From contig NZ_JOFZ01000001.1 in NCBI RefSeq assembly GCF_000721265.1, positions 806,001 to 870,000 on the forward strand: 64,000 nt of DNA, in the 5' to 3' direction. Of the stretch, positions 45,733-56,376 are shown piece by piece; within the stretch, counting starts at the first letter, position 1, and the number at the start of each line of letters is the position of its first letter. This DNA comes from Streptomyces sp. NRRL F-5126 (GTDB lineage Bacteria; Actinomycetota; Actinomycetes; Streptomycetales; Streptomycetaceae). The position numbers and the translations under genes are program-made. A model generated the notes under the pieces. It was not told where the DNA came from and searched no databases. It saw only the letters and a program-made list of their open reading frames with translations.

Positions 45733-45927
45733 CCGGCGTCCGATGCCGGCGACGAAGCCGGTCCACGCGTCACGCGCGAACGCGAGTTGCGGGCCGGTTC
45801 GCTCCTTGGAGTCCCGTATGTGAACCACGGTGTCCTCTGGGGCGATCTCGATGCACTCGCCGCCGTCGCCACCGCTGTAGGTGCTCTTGAACCAGCGGAG
45901 CCTGTCGGCCTGTTCGCTCTTCATCAT
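45712..45927 (-). CDS. DUF397 domain protein
   Basis: 71 residues. RWFKSTYSGGDGGECIEIAP, VVHIRDSKERTGPQLAFARD, AWTGFVAGI is the whole DUF397 pattern (WxKSSYSxxxGxCVEVA...V.VRDSKDP.G..L.F....W..FV). Its start overlaps the end of the XRE gene (ATGA), so the two are co-translated. In streptomycetes DUF397 proteins pair with WhiJ-like regulators and affect development or metabolite production. Confidence 0.95.
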   Translation of the reverse strand: MMKSEQADRLRWFKSTYSGGDGGECIEIAPEDTVVHIRDSKERTGPQLAFARDAWTGFVAGIGRRSSAHRD

Positions 45928-46826
45928 TCTCCCAGCAGCTTCTCGATGAGCACCCGAGAGTCCGGCGGGGTGAGCGCCTGACCACGGATGCTTCCGTAGC
46001 GTGCGGCCAGCATACGGACCTCGTCGGGGTCCGTGATGATCCGGTTGACACTCTGGAACTCGCCGTACCCCAGCTGGGACTTGCCCTCGGGAGTAAGGAG
46101 AATGAACGGCCCCTCCATCCCCGCGTGCCCTTCGCAGGCCAACGGCAGAACCTGAATCTCCACGTTGCGCAGTCGGCTCAGTGCCACGAGATGCTCCAGT
46201 TGCCCGCGCTGCACCAGTCGCCCACCGATCTCTCGGAGCAGCACCGACTCATCGACCACAGCGGTCACTACAGGCGGCGGCCATCGTTCGAGGATCTGCT
46301 GGCGAGCGAGGCGTGTGGACACGCGCTGCTCGATGGTGTCCTCGTCGAGGATGGGACGTCGCGCGGTGAAAACGGTCCGCGCGTACTCCTCGGTCTGCAG
46401 GAGCCCCGGCACGGTCAGCGTGCTGTAGAAGCAGATCTCAACCGCCTGCGCCTCCAGCTCCGCGTAGTCGCGGAACCATTCCGGGTGCCGCAGCCGCCGC
46501 CGCTTCTTCGCCCGCTCCACGTCCTCCGCCGTGACCGCCAGCAACCCGCCGCAGCCGAGGAGTTCGTCGACCGCTGCCAAGAAGGCGGGCTGGGGGGTGC
46601 GGCGGCCCCGTTCGATGGACGAGATCTGCTCCTCGCTGTACCCCGTCCGCTCGCCCAGCTCCTTCTGGCTCAGCCCGCCCCGTTCCCGCCCGGCCTTGAC
46701 CTGGCGGCCGACTGCGCGGAACAGATCCGCCGCCTCGTCCGAGCCCGCCGGATCCTCCGGGCCTGCGTCCGGTCGTACCGCCATGTCCGCCACCCCGTTC
46801 TCGTTCTCCTGACCACCGACCGTCAT
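45924..46826 (-). CDS. WhiJ-like XRE regulator with DUF5753 domain
   Basis: 300 residues. HTH at ~38-95: VGRQVKAGRERGGLSQKELG, ERTGYSEEQISSIERGRRTP. DUF5753 follows: FRDYAELEAQAVEICFYSTL, TVPGLLQTEEYARTVF and a C-terminal IQVLPL strand. Forms the classical WhiJ/DUF397/AbaA-like group with the genes on both sides. Likely a small-molecule- or partner-controlled repressor. Confidence 0.93.
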   Translation of the reverse strand: MTVGGQENENGVADMAVRPDAGPEDPAGSDEAADLFRAVGRQVKAGRERGGLSQKELGERTGYSEEQISSIERGRRTPQPAFLAAVDELLGCGGLLAVTAEDVERAKKRRRLRHPEWFRDYAELEAQAVEICFYSTLTVPGLLQTEEYARTVFTARRPILDEDTIEQRVSTRLARQQILERWPPPVVTAVVDESVLLREIGGRLVQRGQLEHLVALSRLRNVEIQVLPLACEGHAGMEGPFILLTPEGKSQLGYGEFQSVNRIITDPDEVRMLAARYGSIRGQALTPPDSRVLIEKLLGE

Positions 46827-47453: not shown

Positions 47454-48056
47454 TCAGCGTCCGCCGACCCGGGCGGCGATGTCGTCCGGAAGCGGGTAGG
47501 GCCGCTCTCGGGGAAGCAGGCCGCGAGCCTCATAGCCGTCCCCGCGGGTCACGGCTGCGTGCACCTCGTGGGCGAGCGCCGTCACGTCGCGGATCGACGT
47601 GATCCAGTCGTCCACGTACCGGTCGACCGCCTCGCCCGACAGACCGATCTGGATCGCGCGGTGCGGCAACGGGTTGAGCCCCAGATCGCGCTCCGGGTCC
47701 CACTGCACGCGGACCGGACTGCCCTGCAGCTCCTCGCGCCATGCGGACTCGGTCGGGTGGTGGTCGCGATCGAAGTGGCTGAGGGACGCGTGGGCGAGGG
47801 CCCATTCGAAGCCCTCCCGCGTGATGCCGACGGCGAGGACCCGCTCCTGGTCGGGCTTGGCCGCCCAGCCGCAGCGGTACATCATCCACAGGAACGACGG
47901 CTTGATCCACGTCATGCGCTCCCGCTTGAACGGCTCGACGAAGGTCCCCACACGCAGAGCGGGTCCGGCGATCCGGTCCGGGTAGGCCTGGTAGACCGTG
48001 ACGACCTCGGCGTCGAAGACAGCGCGGACCCCGCGTGAGGGGGGCGTGTCGGTCAT
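47454..48056 (-). CDS. DUF4291 protein
   Basis: 200 residues. VRAVFDAEVVTVYQAYPDRI, FVEPFKRERMTWIKPSFLWM and MYRCGWAAKPDQERVLAVGI are the strongly conserved DUF4291 segments; RVQWDPERDLGLNPLPHRAI and QIGLSG are also typical. The function is unknown; the fold may relate to ADP-ribosyltransferases by distant resemblance, which I cannot confirm. Single gene, convergent with the ATPase. Confidence 0.92.
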   Translation of the reverse strand: MTDTPPSRGVRAVFDAEVVTVYQAYPDRIAGPALRVGTFVEPFKRERMTWIKPSFLWMMYRCGWAAKPDQERVLAVGITREGFEWALAHASLSHFDRDHHPTESAWREELQGSPVRVQWDPERDLGLNPLPHRAIQIGLSGEAVDRYVDDWITSIRDVTALAHEVHAAVTRGDGYEARGLLPRERPYPLPDDIAARVGGR

Positions 48057-48219
48057 GCGGACGGCTCCTCAGCCCGAAAAACTGGCTTCCTCGATTTCCT
48101 CCGCGTTTCGCGGGGTATCTCCAGACGTCGATCGGTCAACGCGCCTGGCGGGTGTTCACCGGGTCTGGATCGAAGCAGGCGAGATCGTTCTGCGCAACCT
48201 TTTTTTACATCCGCAGTAG

Positions 48220-48600
48220 CTACTGCGCCGACGCGAGGGCGGCAGCACAAAACTCCGCTGGTGGTAGATAATCGCGTTGCTCAATATAGTGGATGATCAT
48301 CACGGGAGACACGTAAGTGATTCTCCGGCGACCAGCGACACGAATTTCCCCGCTCCCGAGAAAAAGGTGGCCACGCGAGGTATTCGACCGTGCAGTCTGA
48401 AATTCGGGACACAGTTCGCAAAAATGCATTCCGCGCTGCATGTTGATGGGGTCGTGGGCCATACTCACGAGTGACGTCAGTAGCCCGTCGGGCGCGTCTC
48501 CCGTATTGTAGGGATGTTCTCGTGCCAGCCAACCGATATTCAGCATTTCCTGGACGGATGGGCTGTATGAATACGGACTCAAGTCCGGGAAATAGGCCAT
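48220..48600 (-). CDS. DUF7919-like protein, candidate immunity protein
   Basis: 126 residues from the ATG at 48600 (GGTGAGG upstream). MAYFPDLSPYSYSPSVQEML, NIGWLAREHPYNTGDAPDGL, HFCELCPEF are shared by a family I recall as DUF7919, often seen near polymorphic toxin loci. CxxC is present (CELC). AT-rich compared with most of the window. It is the last gene of the Rhs operon and may protect against another toxin or act as an orphan immunity protein. Confidence 0.7.
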   Translation of the reverse strand: MAYFPDLSPYSYSPSVQEMLNIGWLAREHPYNTGDAPDGLLTSLVSMAHDPINMQRGMHFCELCPEFQTARSNTSRGHLFLGSGEIRVAGRRRITYVSPVMIIHYIEQRDYLPPAEFCAAALASAQ

Positions 48601-48688
48601 TGCCTCACCAAGGCTGCACGCATTCGAGACAGGTCGGGACATTCCCAGCACCCATCTTATCCCTCACCGCAACACTGAGCCGATATTG

Positions 48689-48988
48689 TCAGGGAACACT
48701 GTGGAGAATCATACCCACTTCAAGATCGACCGATGGCTCGTTAACCGAAAGTGAAATTTTCGCTCCGTGCGGAGCGTCGAAGAATTCCACAGACCGCCCG
48801 TACCGGTCGATCTGTTCCAGGGTCAGCAGCGAGCGCACTGCGTCCTCCCTATCATCCTGATGCTCAGGGGCAAAGTTTTGGCCGACCCGGACGACACCTC
48901 CTACGCATCGAACTACACAGGTCAGTTGGTCGGAGGCTTGCAACTCAACGGAAACGATCTGAATTCTATTTTCTTCCATTTTATCCAT
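48689..48988 (-). CDS. Candidate cognate immunity protein of the Rhs toxin
   Basis: 99 residues. MDKMEENRIQIVSVELQASD, VVRCVGGVVRVGQNFAPEH, LTLEQIDRYGRSVEFFDAPH, KISLSVNEPSVDLEVGMILH. The start codon overlaps the Rhs stop by 8 bp (ATGGATAA), so the two are translated together. Small acidic cytosolic protein, same low GC as the toxin tip. Overlap, size and place make it the cognate immunity candidate. No family recognised. Confidence 0.72.
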   Translation of the reverse strand: MDKMEENRIQIVSVELQASDQLTCVVRCVGGVVRVGQNFAPEHQDDREDAVRSLLTLEQIDRYGRSVEFFDAPHGAKISLSVNEPSVDLEVGMILHSVP

Positions 48989-51900
48989 GCCTGTAGGCTT
49001 CCCTTAGGAACTGGGTGGTCTGCTCTGGCGTGAGCTTGGGTATATCCCACTCCAGGGCATCGCTGATTCCCTGATATGAGGTCACTTTCGGTACGTGAAT
49101 TCCCATATCTGCGAGGATATCGCGCGCAGAGTCGACAGGCAGTGTCACGCTGGCGCGGCCCGCGAGTTCGCCGGCCGACAACTCTACGCCGACCTCGGCT
49201 TCCGCTGCAATGTATCCGGGAGCGGTGGCCACACCATTGAGCGCACTACGGGGGAATAGTTGGACTACAGCGTCTCCGAACTGCTCGGAGTGTCTCGCAA
49301 AGGCAGTGGCTACTCCAGCGTCTGTGGAGGTAGGTGTGTAACCGCTCGCCTGAGTACCACTACTCGCATCGTACCCCCTGGTGGTACCGCGAAATAGATG
49401 TGGTTCCTCCGGACATCCCACAGGAGCCAAGCCCAACGGATCAATAAGGGATGTGGGCGTGGGGACGTAACCAACCGGATTGGGTGAAGCCGACAAACCC
49501 ATCGGGTCCGGGTTTATATAGCGGGCTGTTTCGGGGTCGTAGTGGCGGAAGTAGTTGTAGTGGAGGCCGGATTCCGGGTCGTAGTACTGGCCTGGGAAAC
49601 GCAGGGGCGTGTACGTGGTGCTGTCGGCTGTCCAGGCCGTTGTGCCCCAGAGGGTGGAGCGGGTGCGCCAGGCGATGTCGCCATGGTCGTCGATGAGTTC
49701 GCTTGGGGTGCCGACGAGGTCGGTGACGATGGCGAAGAAGCGGGAGTCGATGTCCGGCTGGGGCGCGTCAGCGACGTCCGTGGTGGTGGTGCGGCGTTCT
49801 GTTTGCGTCAGGGGGCGCAGGCCGTGGTGGTCCCACGTGAGGGTGACGGGGGCGGGGAGAGCCGGGGACGTGGTGGTCTGTTCGCAGAGGGTCGTGCCGT
49901 CCCACGTGAAGTCGACGCGTTCGGTGACTGTTTCGCCGTCCGGTGCGAGGCGGAGTTTCGCGGTGCGTCGGCCGAGGGGGTCGTAGGTGTAGCGCCAGCG
50001 CGTGCCGTCGGGGGTGGTGACCTGGGTGAGGCGGTCCTCGGGGTCCCACTCGTAGCGCCAGGTGTCCGGCTTGCGGGACAGACGGGTCTTCTGGCGCAAG
50101 GTCGTGCGGCCGAGGGCGTCGTGTTCGTAGCGGACCCCGCCGGCGCGGGTGACGCGGGTGCCGGTGTACTCGCGAGTGCCCACGGCGTCTTGGCCGGGGT
50201 GCTCGGCCGGCCAGGACGCGTGGGTCTGGTTGCCCGCCTCGTCGTAGGCGTAGGACTCGGTCCAGTCGGACGCCTGGACGGTCGTGACGCGGCCTGACGT
50301 GTCGAGGTCGTAGTGGTGGTGGCCGGAGAGTTGGTCGTCGATGTCGGTGATGTTGCCGTCGGCGCGGTAGGTGTAGGCGCGGTGCTGAACCGGGCGGCCG
50401 CCCGCGGCCGTTACCGACTCCTCGGTCAGGCGGCCCAGGGCGTCGAAGGTGTGGTGCAGGGTGATCGCCCCGCCGATGCGGCGGGTCTGCTCGCGTCCCG
50501 CCGCGTCGTAGGTGAGGTCGATGGCCCTGCCGGAGGCGTTCATGCCGGTCAGGCGGCCCGCGGCGTCGTACGAGTACGTGGTGCTGGCGCCGGCCGGGGT
50601 GGTGCGGGCGGTGCGGCGGCCCAGGTCGTCGTAGGTGTACGTCAGGGTCCGGCCGTCGACCGTCTCCGAGCGCAGCCAGCCGTGGCGGTCGCGCAGGAGT
50701 GTGAGGGTCGTGCCGTCGGGGCCGGTCGCCTGGGCCAGGTGGTCGGTGAGGTCGTAGGCGTAGGTCGTCTCCCGGCCCGCCGCGTTCTTGCGGAGCACCT
50801 GTCCCAGGTCGTTGCGTTCGAACTCCACGCGGTCGCCGAGAGCGTTCGTCTGAGAGGCCAACCGCCCGGCGGTGTCATAGGCGTAGGCGAGGGTACGGTC
50901 GTCGAAGTCCGTCTCCTCGGCCAGGCGGCCTGCCGCGTCATAGCTGTAGGTCCAGGTCAGCCCTTGTGGGTTGGTGACGTTCGTCAGGCGCAGTTCGGTG
51001 TCGTGAGCGAACTCGTAGCGCACACCGTCGGGTCCTGTGCGGGCCGTGAGCAGGTCGAAGTGCGTGTATGCGTACCGGGACACGCCGCCGAGCGGGTCGG
51101 TGTGGCTTGTGCAGTTGCCTTCGCCGTCGTACGTCCAGGACTCGGCCGTACCGTCCGGAGCCGTGCGCCGGGTCAGGTGGCCCTCGACCGTCCACGTCAT
51201 GCGTGCCGTGGCGCCCGTCGGGTCCGTGATCGCCGTCGGGCGGCCGAAGGCGTCCCGCTGGTAGCGGGTGGTCGCGCCCAGTGGGTCGGTGACCAGCAGT
51301 GGTAGTCCGGCGGGGTCGGAGGCCACGGTTGTGGTGCTACCGAGGGGGTCCGTCACGGAGGTGAGGTGGCCGGCCGTGTTGTAGGCGAGGTGTGTGGTCC
51401 GGCCGGTGGGGTCGGTGATCGAGGTGCGGTTGCCGTGCTCGTCGTAGGTCTGCCTGGTGACCGTGCCGTCGGTGTTCATCACCTTCGTCGGCAGGCCCTG
51501 GCCGTTGTACTCGGCCCGCGTGGCTCGGCCGTCCGGGCGGGTCACGGTCACCAGGTCGCCTGCCTGGTCGTACTGGAACGACGTGGTCCGGCCGAGTGGG
51601 TCCGTGCGGGCCAGCAGGCGGCCCCGATGGTCGCGCTGGTAGCGGGTGGTCGCGCCGAGCGGGTCGGTCTCGGCGATCACCCGGCAGTGGGCGTTGACCG
51701 TGTAGTGCGTGGCGTGGCCGAGCGAGTCCGTGATGGCGGTGGTGTGTTCGCCGGTGTCCGGGTCGACCGCGCTGTAGGTGAAGTCCGAGCGCAGGTGGCC
51801 TGCGGCGCCGGACTGGTGGGTGCAGCGGTCCTGGTCGTCGTAGTTGTAGTCGAAGCGGCTGTCGTTGGTGTCGGTCCAGGACGTGATGCGGCCGTGTGCG

Positions 51901-53765
51901 TCGTAGCCGAACCGGGTAGGGCGCCCCGATGAGTTGGTGACGGTCGTGAGGTGGCCGTCCGTGTAGCCGTAGCGGAGCAGTTCCTGGTCCGCGCCGTCCG
52001 CGGCGGCACCCTCCAGGTGCAGGGCCGTCACCCGGCCGTCCGCGGTCGATATGCGCAGCCGGTACCCGCCGCTGTGGACGATGGCGCGTGGCGTGCCGTC
52101 GGCATCGCGCTCGAACGCGGTCCAGTTGCCGTTGCGGTCGTCGAGCTGCTCCAGCAGTGCGAGGCCGTCGCCGCGCTCTTCGAAGTGCCGCACCTGGCCG
52201 GTCTTGGGGTCGGTGACCGTGTAGCCGTCCTCCGTGCGGTCCAGGGCCAGGCGCGGACCGTGGGCGGGCAGGGTGGGGACGCCGGGCGCGGGATGCGGGT
52301 AGGCCAGGGTCACGCCGTCCTCGCCGACGTGCACGACGCCCTGCGCGTCGATCTCCAGACGCTCGTCGAGCGTGGAGGACCAGGTGGGCCCGAACCAGCC
52401 GCCCAGCCGGTACGACGACTCGAACTGGCGCCGCAGGATCAGCGGGAGTACTCCCGGCAGCGACACGTCGGTTGACGGCAACACCATGCGGCCGGTCGCG
52501 ACGTCGACGGGATCCTTCGCGCAGACCTTCTCGCCCGGCCGCCGCGAGACGTCCTCGGCGCCGTCCTCCACCGCCTTGCGGGCGCTCGTGCGCAGGCCCT
52601 GCTCCGCGGCCTCCTTCGCCCCGTCCTCCGCTGCCAGGCGCAGCCCGCCGCGGGCCAGGCCCACGCCTTTGGTGCCGACGAGTTCGGGGATGAGGCGGCC
52701 GACGAACTCGGCGGGGTCCTTCTTGAACCCGTTGACGGCCGTCTGGACGACCCGCTCAGGGTGCGCGGCCGTGGAGACCAGGCCCGACAGGGTCATGCTC
52801 ACGTTCTGCAGGTACGCAGCCGGGTGCGTGAGGTTGTAGGGGTCCATGGGGTCGAGGCCCCGGGCGAACGTCACCAGGCCGGCTGTGCCCTTGATGATGC
52901 CGCCGCCGACGTGGGCGAGTTCGGTGTTTACGGCCGTGTTGGCGTCGAGGAAGTCGTTGCCGAGGCGGGCCAGGGGTGGGGGCTCGGCCGGGGCGTGGGC
53001 GAGCGCCGCCTTGATCTTTCCCTGCGCCTCAGAGCCGGCGGTGTTGCGCTGCTTACGCGCCTCGGCCAGCTTGGCACGGGCCGCCTTGACGTCCGCCTCG
53101 CCGGGGTCGGTGAACGGGTCGGGTTTCGGGCCGGGGTCCTCGTTCGCGTCGACCTTCGCGTTGTACGCGTCGACCTTCTTGTTGTACGCGTTGACTGCGT
53201 CCTTGGAGGCTTTGACGCCCTTCTTGTACAGGGCGATGGCCTCCTTGGCCTGGCCCTGTGCCCAGGTGACGGTGTGCGCGTAGGCGTCGAGAGCGCCGGC
53301 AGCCGCCTCGCAGGCGGCCGCGGCCTGCGCCCACTTGGCGGGGTGGAGCCCGAACTCCTCCCGGAACGCGTCGCCGCCCTCGCCCTTCCAGCCCGATGAG
53401 TCGACCTTCTTCATCCCCGTGGCGACCTTGCCGAACGCGGAGTGGAAGTCGGTGAGGTGCTTGGCACTCTCGCGTATCTTGCCGGGATCGCCGTGGACGA
53501 GCTCGTTCGGCTCGTCGCTCTGGCCGAGTTGCTGCTCGCCAGGGGTGGCGCCCAGGTCGGACGCGAGGTCGTCACCCCAGTCCTCCACGTGATCGGCCCA
53601 GTCGTGCAGGCCGACGTGGTCCAGGCCGTCGCCGACCTTGTTCGTGGCCCAGTCGACGCCCTCGCCGGCCTTCTTCTTGCCCTCGTCGAAGAGGTGCTCG
53701 CCGTAGCCGAGGCCCTTGTTGATGCCGTGGCTGATGCCGTCGCCTATGTCCCCCAGCAGGCCCAT
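48981..53765 (-). CDS. WXG-type Rhs polymorphic toxin with ART-like tip
   Basis: 1594 residues from ATG 53765. The first ~330 residues form a helical WXG100-like export domain (SGWKGEGGDAFREEF at ~125) with a coiled coil of AYNKKVDAYNAKVD repeats. DPVDVATGRMVLPSTDVSLP opens the Rhs shell. About 25 YD/Rhs repeats follow (GRxTxxxxP-type), and the core-end box YDPETARYINPDPMGLSASP then IDPLGLAP releases the tip. The tip (~1448-1594) has FRGTTRGYDASSG, TPTSTDAGVATAFA and YIAAEAEVGVEL, matching the R-S-E (Arg, STS, ExE) pattern of ADP-ribosyltransferases. The protein would leave via a type VII route and act on rivals. Confidence 0.9.
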   Translation of the reverse strand: MGLLGDIGDGISHGINKGLGYGEHLFDEGKKKAGEGVDWATNKVGDGLDHVGLHDWADHVEDWGDDLASDLGATPGEQQLGQSDEPNELVHGDPGKIRESAKHLTDFHSAFGKVATGMKKVDSSGWKGEGGDAFREEFGLHPAKWAQAAAACEAAAGALDAYAHTVTWAQGQAKEAIALYKKGVKASKDAVNAYNKKVDAYNAKVDANEDPGPKPDPFTDPGEADVKAARAKLAEARKQRNTAGSEAQGKIKAALAHAPAEPPPLARLGNDFLDANTAVNTELAHVGGGIIKGTAGLVTFARGLDPMDPYNLTHPAAYLQNVSMTLSGLVSTAAHPERVVQTAVNGFKKDPAEFVGRLIPELVGTKGVGLARGGLRLAAEDGAKEAAEQGLRTSARKAVEDGAEDVSRRPGEKVCAKDPVDVATGRMVLPSTDVSLPGVLPLILRRQFESSYRLGGWFGPTWSSTLDERLEIDAQGVVHVGEDGVTLAYPHPAPGVPTLPAHGPRLALDRTEDGYTVTDPKTGQVRHFEERGDGLALLEQLDDRNGNWTAFERDADGTPRAIVHSGGYRLRISTADGRVTALHLEGAAADGADQELLRYGYTDGHLTTVTNSSGRPTRFGYDAHGRITSWTDTNDSRFDYNYDDQDRCTHQSGAAGHLRSDFTYSAVDPDTGEHTTAITDSLGHATHYTVNAHCRVIAETDPLGATTRYQRDHRGRLLARTDPLGRTTSFQYDQAGDLVTVTRPDGRATRAEYNGQGLPTKVMNTDGTVTRQTYDEHGNRTSITDPTGRTTHLAYNTAGHLTSVTDPLGSTTTVASDPAGLPLLVTDPLGATTRYQRDAFGRPTAITDPTGATARMTWTVEGHLTRRTAPDGTAESWTYDGEGNCTSHTDPLGGVSRYAYTHFDLLTARTGPDGVRYEFAHDTELRLTNVTNPQGLTWTYSYDAAGRLAEETDFDDRTLAYAYDTAGRLASQTNALGDRVEFERNDLGQVLRKNAAGRETTYAYDLTDHLAQATGPDGTTLTLLRDRHGWLRSETVDGRTLTYTYDDLGRRTARTTPAGASTTYSYDAAGRLTGMNASGRAIDLTYDAAGREQTRRIGGAITLHHTFDALGRLTEESVTAAGGRPVQHRAYTYRADGNITDIDDQLSGHHHYDLDTSGRVTTVQASDWTESYAYDEAGNQTHASWPAEHPGQDAVGTREYTGTRVTRAGGVRYEHDALGRTTLRQKTRLSRKPDTWRYEWDPEDRLTQVTTPDGTRWRYTYDPLGRRTAKLRLAPDGETVTERVDFTWDGTTLCEQTTTSPALPAPVTLTWDHHGLRPLTQTERRTTTTDVADAPQPDIDSRFFAIVTDLVGTPSELIDDHGDIAWRTRSTLWGTTAWTADSTTYTPLRFPGQYYDPESGLHYNYFRHYDPETARYINPDPMGLSASPNPVGYVPTPTSLIDPLGLAPVGCPEEPHLFRGTTRGYDASSGTQASGYTPTSTDAGVATAFARHSEQFGDAVVQLFPRSALNGVATAPGYIAAEAEVGVELSAGELAGRASVTLPVDSARDILADMGIHVPKVTSYQGISDALEWDIPKLTPEQTTQFLREAYRHG

Positions 53766-54369
53766 CAGCCGTTGCCGTCCTGCTGCGTGTCCTGCTGCCC
53801 GTCCGGGATGCCGAACGCGCCGTCCAGGTCCGCGGGATTCGGGCCCAGCGGGCCGAGGGGGCCGAGGGTGTGCGACGTCATCACGTCGTGGCCCGCGTCC
53901 TTCCACCCCTGCCCGATGTTCGTCAGCGCGTCGTCGAAGGACTTCTCGCTGAAGTCCGTGCTCGCCCCGGACGTGACGATGTCGCGCCAGCCGGTCTTCT
54001 CGATGTCGTCCTCGGACGCGTACGGGTTGCCGACCGCCGCGTTCGTGGCGACCTTGAAGCTGCCCTCCAGGTAGTGCTCGGTCTCGTAGTGCGCACCCGC
54101 CGACATGCCCGTCTTGGCCGCCAGCGCGTTGCCCTCGTCGACCAGCGCACGCACCCCCACTCCCAGCGGTCGCAGAACGTTCGCAATTCGTCCGTCAGGC
54201 CCTCGTGTCCGAGTTGCAGACCCGACAGTGCGATGTCGCTGAAGCCCCGCCCGGCGTCGGCCGCGCCGACCATGCCCAGCTCCTTGAGCTCGCCCAGGGC
54301 TGCCGTCAGCCCCTGTGCGATCAGGCCGAGCCCCTCGGTCTGAAGGGCCTTGCCGTCGCTGCCCGTCAT
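53765..54369 (-). pseudogene. WXG-type partner of the Rhs toxin, apparent frameshift
   Basis: Reading MTGSDGKALQTEGLGLIAQG to ELRTFCDRWEWG in one frame, and VRALVDEGNALAAKTG to GIPDGQQDTQQDGNG in the next, gives one ~200-residue ESX-like helical protein (CDRWEWG is WxG-like). The frames meet in a run of five G at 54154-54158; six would restore it. It may be a sequencing error, a phase-variable tract, or a disabled gene. The stop overlaps the Rhs ATG (TGATG); the start overlaps the SseB stop (ATGA). Confidence 0.7.
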
Positions 54370-54875
54370 GCCGCGCCCCCTTCACCCACCGGAAGGTCCA
54401 CGGCCGCCGCGTCCGGCACGATCCCGTGCAGGGGCGGGAAGACCATCCCGTCCTCCCCGTCCGCGCAGTCCAGCGCCACCCCGCACGGCACCCCCGCCGC
54501 CGGCACCGCCACGTCCAGCAGGCGCGCGCCGAGGACGGTCTGGTACGCCCACTCGCGTGCCGTCTCGCCACGCGCCACCGCGTAACGGGCCAGCGCCTGC
54601 TCGTCGGAGAACGCCAGGACGAAACGGATTCCGTTGAAGTCGGCAGTCAGCAGGCCCCGCTCCTCGTCGGGCCCCGGCCCGTCGCCCAGCGGGACCAGCA
54701 CTGCGGTGCGACGGAACTCGCCCAGCAGCTCGGCGAACGCGTGCCTGCGGGCCTTCGCCGAGCCAGTGCCGGTTTCAGCGGGTGTGGGTCCCTCCGTCGT
54801 CTGCGCCACGTCCGCCAAGCGCAGGTCGCGCGCGCCGTTGCGCGGCTGCGCCGCCTCGCCCCCGTGGTCAGACAT
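54366..54875 (-). CDS. SseB-like protein
   Basis: 169 residues from ATG 54875 (GGGAAG 9 nt upstream; ATG 54884 is also possible). RRHAFAELLGEFRRTAVLVP, RGLLTADFNGIRFVLAFSDE, QALARYAVARGETAREWAYQ, TVLGARLLDVAVPAAGVPCG, VALDCADGEDGMVFPPLHGI is the SseB N-domain (ADFNGIRWV/AFTDEEALA). SseB proteins serve secretion systems as regulators or chaperones. First gene of the operon with the WXG partner, Rhs toxin and immunity genes; the stop overlaps the next start. Confidence 0.85.
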   Translation of the reverse strand: MSDHGGEAAQPRNGARDLRLADVAQTTEGPTPAETGTGSAKARRHAFAELLGEFRRTAVLVPLGDGPGPDEERGLLTADFNGIRFVLAFSDEQALARYAVARGETAREWAYQTVLGARLLDVAVPAAGVPCGVALDCADGEDGMVFPPLHGIVPDAAAVDLPVGEGGAA

Positions 54876-54972: not shown

Positions 54973-56376
54973 TCAGGCGCGGCCGCCCGCCGCGTCCCAG
55001 GCCGCGACGAGGCCGGTGTAGAGCTCGGCGTCGCTCAGGCCGCGGGGCTCGGGGCCCGCGTGGAAGAAGCCGACGTGGTCCATCTCCTGCTCCGCCTTGC
55101 GCAGGAAGTCGAACGCCTTGGAGTCGGACGGGCCGAACGCGACGAACGCCCAGGCCAGGGGCTTGCCCGCGACGTCGTTCAGCGCCTGGCGCGCGACGAG
55201 CTTGGCGTCGGGGGCGCCGTCGGTCTGGAAGACGACCAGCGCGGGGCGGCCCTCGGACGCGGCCTCCGACTTCTCGTAGTGCTCGACGACGTCCTCGACG
55301 GCGCGGTGGTAGCTCGTGCGGCCGAGCCGCCCGAGGCCCGCGTGCGTCTCGTCGATGACGTTCTCGTACGCGCCGAGGGTCAGGTCGGCCGAGCCGTCGA
55401 TGTCGGTGGAGAAGAACACCGTGTGGACGACGGGGTCGACGGCGTCCTCGCCGCCCAGTTGCGCGGCCAGCGCGAGCACCTGCTCGGCGAGGCCCTGCAC
55501 GCTGCCGTCCTTGTAGAACGTCCGCATGGAGCCCGACCGGTCGAGCACGAGGTAGACGGCGCGCTCGGGCGCCCTGTCACCCAGCGCCTCGCCGGCGGCG
55601 TCGTACGCGCCGCGCAGGCCATCGGGGACGTGGGCGGCGGGGGCGTCCGCCGCGTTCTTGGCGTCGGCCGGCGGTTCCGCTCCCGGCCGCTCGGGCTCCG
55701 GGGGCTCCGCAGCCTCTGACTCCGCGGTCGATGCCGCGTCCGGCTCGGGAGCCGACTCTGCGGCCGATTCCGCTTCTGGCTGCTCGGGGTGCGAGTCCTC
55801 CGGCGCCGCGGCGGGAGCCTCGGCCGGGGTGTCGGCGTGTGCTTCCTGCTCACCGGCTTCGGGGGCCAGTTCTGGCTCCGGCTCGGACGCGGGCGTCGCG
55901 GACCGCTCCTGCTCGTCGGCACCGGGGCCCGGTTCCGATCGCCCGGCCTCGGGAGCCGCCTCCGCCCGCTCGGGCTCGGGGGCCGTCTGCGGATCCTCCG
56001 GGGCCGTCGGCTCGGGCTCGGGCTCCTGCTCGGCGGCCACGCGATCGGGCTTCGTCGGCTCGGGCGTCGCCACCGCCTCGGTGATCTTCGTGTCCGGGGC
56101 GTCGTCCGGCGTTGCCTGGGCCGGGACCTTCGGGGTCGGCGGCGTCGTGGCGCGCGGGTTGTCGAAGGCCGCCGCCACCAGGTCTGCCGCGGCGTCGCCG
56201 GAGTCCGCCGGCGCGGCGGCGTCCGGGGCAGCCGGGGCCGGCTGCGTGCGGTCCGCGCGCTCGCGGTCCGCCTGCGGCGGGAGGACGGTGCCGGTCGACT
56301 CGTCGTGCCCCTCGGGGCCGCTCGTGTCGCCACCGTCGCGTCCGAACACCTTGCGCAGCAAGCTCCGAATGCCCAT
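54973..56376 (-). CDS. VWA-domain protein with long acidic linker (TerF/tellurium-type)
   Basis: 467 residues. [17 protein letters not shown] is a basic head; ~40-240 is a Glu/Pro/Ala-rich disordered stretch. The VWA domain (~260-460) has [13 protein letters not shown] (MIDAS DxSxS), [17 protein letters not shown], and [19 protein letters not shown]-TerF-like proteins occur in stress/tellurium-resistance loci and phage-response clusters. It lies upstream of the SseB operon on the same strand (gap ~90 bp). Metal-dependent protein binding is the likely role. Confidence 0.88.

Follow-up and report, generated by a model that had tools for sequence, protein, structure and literature searches.

The 64,000-nucleotide stretch of Streptomyces sp. 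NRRL F-5126 analyzed here (contig NZ_JOFZ01000001.1, positions 806,001 to 870,000; hereafter the window) carries on its minus strand a Rhs polymorphic toxin gene whose C-terminal tip is a predicted R-S-E-type ADP-ribosyltransferase (ART). Directly downstream lies a small gene whose product, as shown by sequence and computation, resembles domain II of elongation factor Tu (EF-Tu) in predicted fold and apparently in sequence profile. We suggest, with a probability of roughly 0.4, that the tip is an ART toxin acting on EF-Tu and that its partner, a domain-II-like barrel, blocks the tip as a stand-in for EF-Tu. An earlier note, made from the DNA letters, had described the tip as ART-like, and the analysis below supports that reading for the predicted domain.

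Conserved motifs and predicted fold of the toxin tip

The tip forms the end of the minus-strand Rhs gene and comprises 146 residues after IDPLGLAP (48984..49430; 149 residues when LAP is counted), which confirms the toxin tip of about 147 residues that had been placed at 48981..49430. The three motifs named in the earlier note, FRGTT, TPTSTD and AEAEVGVEL, were all present, and their key residues were near-invariant in an alignment of 41 relatives with 83 to 26% identity to the window tip, on which the following counts are based. The predicted catalytic Arg (R14 of the 149-residue tip, R1459 of the protein; 49389..49391, minus strand) was kept in 39/41 rows, with a gap in P0075 and Gln in P0077, and the predicted catalytic Ser of TPTSTD (S35, S1480; 49326..49328, minus strand) was kept in all 41. 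Within the ExE motif E77-A-E79 (E1522 and E1524; 49194..49202, minus strand), Glu77 occurred in 37 rows and was replaced by Asp in P0075, P0076, P0077 and P0084; Glu79 occurred in 39 rows, with Asp in P0054 and Ala in P0082. The order of the motifs was ART-like, as had been claimed, but the spacing agreed only in part: 21 residues lie between R and S and 44 between S and E79, compared with 42 and 52 in the triad region of RhsF (R1403, S1445, E1497), in which Y1456, not S1445, is counted in the triad (PMC13324451; this and the other published systems are cited from the openly available parts of the sources).

The AlphaFold2 model of the tip reached a predicted local distance difference test (pLDDT) value of 90.6, and its structural neighbours came from the ART superfamily, to which 47 of the 50 matches shown in the structural comparison belonged. 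The fold check proposed in the earlier note thus came out in favour of an ART. The nearest solved folds were the tRNA 2'-phosphotransferases Tpt1/KptA, matches within 1 Z being regarded as tied. A Foldseek search with the same model returned no match at E 0.001 or below. The triad was located on successive strands of the model (R14 on strand 11-17, S35 on 32-35, E79 on 79-82). As modelled, the tip combines two features of the R-S-E clade of the ART superfamily, the ART fold and the conserved R, S and E.

Architecture of the Rhs gene

The Rhs gene (48981..53765, minus strand, stop codon included) encodes 1594 amino acids when read from the ATG at 53765 (start MGLLGDIGDG); an in-frame GTG upstream at 53906 would give a longer open reading frame of 1641 amino acids. 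In Pfam, the protein matched T7SS_signal, DUF6531, 19 RHS_repeat stretches and RHS, and in NCBIfam YD repeats and Rhs_assc_core. The putative type VII secretion system (T7SS) signal domain covers residues 23-262 (52980..53699, minus strand; PF21725, E 1e-104), the DUF6531 domain residues 418-489 (52299..52514, minus strand; PF20148, E 1.8e-22), and the end of the Rhs-associated core, terminating in IDPLGL, residues 1372-1446 (49428..49652, minus strand; TIGR03696, E 4.5e-20). All features tested for a Rhs polymorphic toxin of the T7SS type, namely secretion domain, YD repeats, core end and variable tip, were present, and an EccB gene was found in the same genome (PF05108, E 9.6e-74). Going by its layout, the system consists of an antibacterial contact-type toxin gene and a dedicated antidote gene. 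Three further Rhs-type genes of this genome, on contigs C6, C15 and C17 (L202, L203 and L204), have different tails, and the one on C17 ends after a stretch read as Hint-type.

An unnamed family of toxin tips

The tip had no match in Pfam, NCBIfam, PHROGs or PADLOC, and for these collections the earlier statement that no described family covers it holds. Family assignment from sequence, using the single tip as well as 13-row and 41-row alignments against Pfam, NCBIfam and the PDB, yielded chance-level matches only, with the exception of one member of the 41-row alignment that matched the Rhs core model TIGR03696 of NCBIfam. PF15633 (Tox-ART-HYD1) was matched neither by the tip at E up to 10 nor by the 41 members at E up to 1.

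Relatives of the tip were found with several searches. Phmmer recovered 12 short relatives among 130 candidates; when the last 155 residues were compared with full-length proteins, 911 candidates yielded 34 relatives. Each of these contains RHS repeats; one is from an Amycolatopsis, and the others are from Streptomyces or without an organism name. The 13-row profile, applied only to the 7996 candidates with the most words in common, reached 60 proteins from sources that include Chitinophaga, Aquimarina, Flavobacterium and Kitasatospora; P0054, P0076 and P0087 are relatives from Bacteroidota. Some relatives have other N-termini before the tip, such as P0007 (read as a Hint-type end) and P0074 (source name filamentous hemagglutinin). 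When 396 genomes of the phylum were scanned, the own genome and G619 gave convincing matches, while 15 further weak matches (E 0.004 to 0.1) were judged to be chance. The tip was present in 2/301 genomes of the family of G619 and in 3/296 genomes of the class, all three of which had already been found. No relatives were found in viral contigs, plasmids or phages. The tip family is widespread and without a name, and we classify it as a new family of ART toxins within a known kind of system.

The partner gene encodes a protein predicted to resemble EF-Tu domain II

The gene downstream of the tip (48689..48988, minus strand) encodes 99 amino acids, predicted to form an EF-Tu-domain-II-like beta barrel, and starts inside the toxin end with an overlap of 8 nt. 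Its modelled fold is that of the domain II barrel of translational GTPases. The family consists of stand-alone proteins of about 92-109 amino acids, with starts as chosen by us, in which R27, G31, G36, I60 and Y63 are invariant (23/23 members). Nothing in Pfam exceeded the curated cut-off, PF03144 appearing in 1/23 members at E 0.069, and a sequence search of the PDB with the immunity alignment gave no match. The protein thus differs from domain II of EF-Tu and SelB (PF03144) in standing alone and in lying below the Pfam cut-off.

Profile-profile comparison gave a score of 28.4 against EF-Tu domain II (best shuffle 15.2; hhalign probability 54%) and of 27.8 against SelB-type domain II (best shuffle 17.6; hhalign probability 50%). 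Comparing the immunity alignment with single domain II sequences by hhalign was too weak, and the signal appeared only between profiles. As closest relatives, domain II of the IF2 type (11.8 against a shuffle maximum of 22.4) and of the LepA type (16.7 against 16.4) were rejected. EF-G, repeated with 18 rows, scored 12.8 and again did not rise above its shuffles. For EF-G2 (22.9) and TypA (21.5), the matches covered 34 and 41 columns and were considered local. The earlier profile comparison contained only 4 EF-G rows, short loci having been dropped (7/11 EF-G and 3/20 EF-Tu candidates); the repeat omitted 4 of the 56 domain II stretches, of which two were off the TypA pattern and two of unclear class.

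Tip and small protein are paired and diversify together

Among 392 genomes of the same genus, the tip was found in 16 (the own genome included) and a relative of the small protein in 64. In all 16 tip genomes, two of which (G057 and G179) have only a broken tip piece, tip and small protein were at most 60 nt apart; ignoring phylogeny, the hypergeometric P for co-presence was 4.5e-14. A hidden Markov model (HMM) of the small protein matched at 31/31 tip loci examined, corresponding to 28 distinct places with the window included. Most of the matched proteins had been used in the HMM; those of L018, L019, L028, L036 and L122 had not. The small protein also accompanied the tip at two loci outside the genus, L039 and L122. 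In one Streptomyces record (P0012, L018), the tip end and the immunity protein are read through as one frame.

When distance matrices were compared for 21 loci, the correlation was 0.84 between tip and small protein (partial correlation 0.77), 0.56 between tip and Rhs core and 0.54 between small protein and core. The small protein diverges fastest: its mean identity was 0.36, while the tip reached 0.62 and the core 0.60. From this set L016, L018-L020, L024, L026, L028 and L035-L037 were left out on account of a broken tip, a short flank, a missing row in the immunity alignment or repetition of the same contig. The locus thus shows what is expected of a toxin-immunity pair, a cognate gene directly downstream that diversifies together with the toxin.

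For 35 family members located apart from any intact tip, the surroundings were also read. Three are located one gene past other Rhs ends (L074, L078, L182), and one (L090) directly behind a decayed tip. Eight lie near a gene recognized from its translation, not by a family search, as GNAT-like (L088, L091, L092, L187-L191); these eight may be immunity genes that were domesticated, or may represent the cellular source of the antidote. Judged from gene context, the small gene looks like a typical immunity gene of which orphan copies exist.

Neighbouring genes

The immunity gene is followed by a DUF7919 gene (48220-48651, minus strand; PF25535, E 2.7e-38), which, we guess, might be another orphan immunity gene. 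Next come a DUF4291 gene (47454-48056, minus strand; E 7.7e-74) and a helix-turn-helix regulator with DUF5753 (45924-46826, minus strand). A role of the DUF4291 gene as a second protective gene was dropped; it had no match in the tip loci of 12 named relatives. On the other side, an open reading frame of 268 amino acids with no Pfam match (53765-54571, minus strand) overlaps the start of the Rhs gene, and a TerF-like vWA protein is encoded further upstream (54973-56376, minus strand; PF10138, E 2.7e-33). The GC content of the window had its minimum, 0.564, at 48001-49000, where the immunity gene and the gene following it are located, the lowest of 64 one-kilobase bins; the adjoining bin was next lowest (0.633) and the rest ranged from 0.657 to 0.785. 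Such a drop might be expected of a recently exchanged cassette.

Proposed mode of action and alternatives

According to our proposal, the Rhs protein would be exported by a type VII system, in line with the EccB gene of the genome; its tail would enter a competitor, split NAD and pass ADP-ribose to EF-Tu, or to a protein closely related to it, whereupon protein synthesis would stop. Within the producer and related cells, the surface on which the toxin docks EF-Tu would be taken up by the small protein, a decoy imitating domain II, so that the real EF-Tu would be spared. Since the partner is predicted to fold like a domain of EF-Tu, it likely protects by imitating what the toxin would bind. A more far-reaching version, which we put forward with considerable doubt, is that the antidote was copied from the victim itself: the immunity protein would be a decoy descended from EF-Tu domain II, and the toxin, a new ART family extending from Streptomyces to Bacteroidota, would modify EF-Tu. 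Protection by such a descendant would work because the toxin recognizes and modifies EF-Tu via domain II, as the same version proposes.

Several observations weigh against our proposal. SelB-type domain II scores as well as that of EF-Tu; Phe218, Glu259 and Arg262 of EF-Tu, which are involved in the docking of CdiA-CT toxins on domain II (PMC9071432), are seemingly not kept in the immunity protein; and a domain-II-like barrel also occurs in small proteins for which we know of no link to a toxin. Nearly as likely as our proposal is an ART tip with another target, whose immunity protein blocks the active site and merely happens to be built on the EF-Tu-domain-II barrel as a scaffold. Occlusion of the active site is common in immunity proteins (RhsFi, PMC13324451; RhsI2; a model of Tni5), known ART toxins have many targets, and stand-alone domain-II-like barrels are found elsewhere, as are members of the present family in non-toxin contexts. 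On the other hand, the profile likeness is strongest to EF-Tu and SelB and not to the barrel generally, EF-G, IF2 and LepA scoring low and TypA and EF-G2 in between, and EF-Tu is already known as an ART target. That EF-Tu is instead a helper needed for activity or placement of the tip, with the immunity protein replacing it, would fit the CdiA-CT toxins of EC869 and NC101, which bind EF-Tu domain II, the very domain whose fold is predicted for the immunity protein, and use EF-Tu/EF-Ts for tRNA cleavage (PMC9071432). This explanation appears improbable, as those toxins are BECR-fold tRNases rather than ARTs, and the available text does not describe their immunity proteins as EF-Tu-like.

The remaining alternatives concern the tip itself. 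Tne5 sets a precedent for an ART-fold Rhs tip acting as an NAD glycohydrolase that destroys NAD without transfer; Tne5 barely needs its Glu, however, whereas R, S and both Glu of the ExE motif are nearly invariant here, and we regard this activity as rather unlikely for the present tip. Modification of RNA, as by the Rhs ART RhsP2, or action on RNA ends, as by KptA/Tpt1, has in its favour that the latter are the nearest solved folds. The rank of tied folds alone does not give a substrate, and the three downstream neighbours scanned (DUF7919, DUF4291, DUF5753/HTH) had no macrodomain, NADAR or ADP-ribosyl-glycohydrolase match, which leaves an RNA target with a small share of the probability. Finally, the lack of a database family and of a Foldseek match might suggest that the motifs are fortuitous and the tip no ART at all. 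We consider this very unlikely: the motifs are more than chance because R14, S35, E77 and E79 are kept down to 26% identity, and ART-superfamily folds dominate the structural comparison.

Relation to known systems

The proposal of an ART toxin acting on EF-Tu has its closest counterpart in TreTu, a Rhs ART that modifies EF-Tu. A relative of TreTu/TriTu is filed under Tox-ART-HYD1, the family that the window tip does not match; HYD1 is listed with an H-led motif (PMC3482391), while the window tip is R-S-E, and TreTu is an effector of the type VI secretion system, while the N-terminus here is of the T7SS type. Tox-ART-RSE (Zhang et al. 2012, PMC3482391) is likewise an ART domain with R, S and E and is listed with Rhs, T7SS-type toxins and actinobacteria. 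Its listed motif is RxDxR, in place of which FRGTT is found at the Arg of the window tip, and its listed partners are Imm41 and ADP-ribosyl glycohydrolase, whereas the partner here is below the Pfam cut-off and modelled as a domain-II barrel. EF-Tu is not mentioned in the available text of that paper.

RhsF/RhsFi of Chromobacterium resembles the present pair in that a database-unmatched Rhs tip was shown to be ART-like and a small immunity protein sits in the active-site cleft; the RhsF triad is R-Y-E, though, and RhsFi consists of six helices, not of a beta barrel as predicted here (PMC13324451). The CdiA-CT toxins of EC869 and NC101 are also interbacterial toxins tied to EF-Tu domain II, a link that for the window is a prediction, and differ in the fold, helper and immunity features given above (PMC9071432). 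Cpi1 competes with the substrate for the docking site of Cpe1, as is proposed here for the small protein, but Cpe1 is a protease, and the available text makes no mention of a likeness of Cpi1 to the fold of the substrate (PMC12136450). In the titles, abstract openings and passages of the matches listed from the open literature, no EF-Tu-like immunity protein was described.

New here would be an ART toxin family absent from the four collections searched and an immunity protein predicted to be built like part of the translation machinery. If the more far-reaching version holds, the fold of the antidote reveals what the toxin attacks with no experiment needed, and if the antidote mimics the target, the folds of immunity proteins might also hint at the targets of further orphan toxins. 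The locus would be a T7SS-linked actinobacterial case beside TreTu, suggesting that EF-Tu has been attacked repeatedly by unrelated ARTs.
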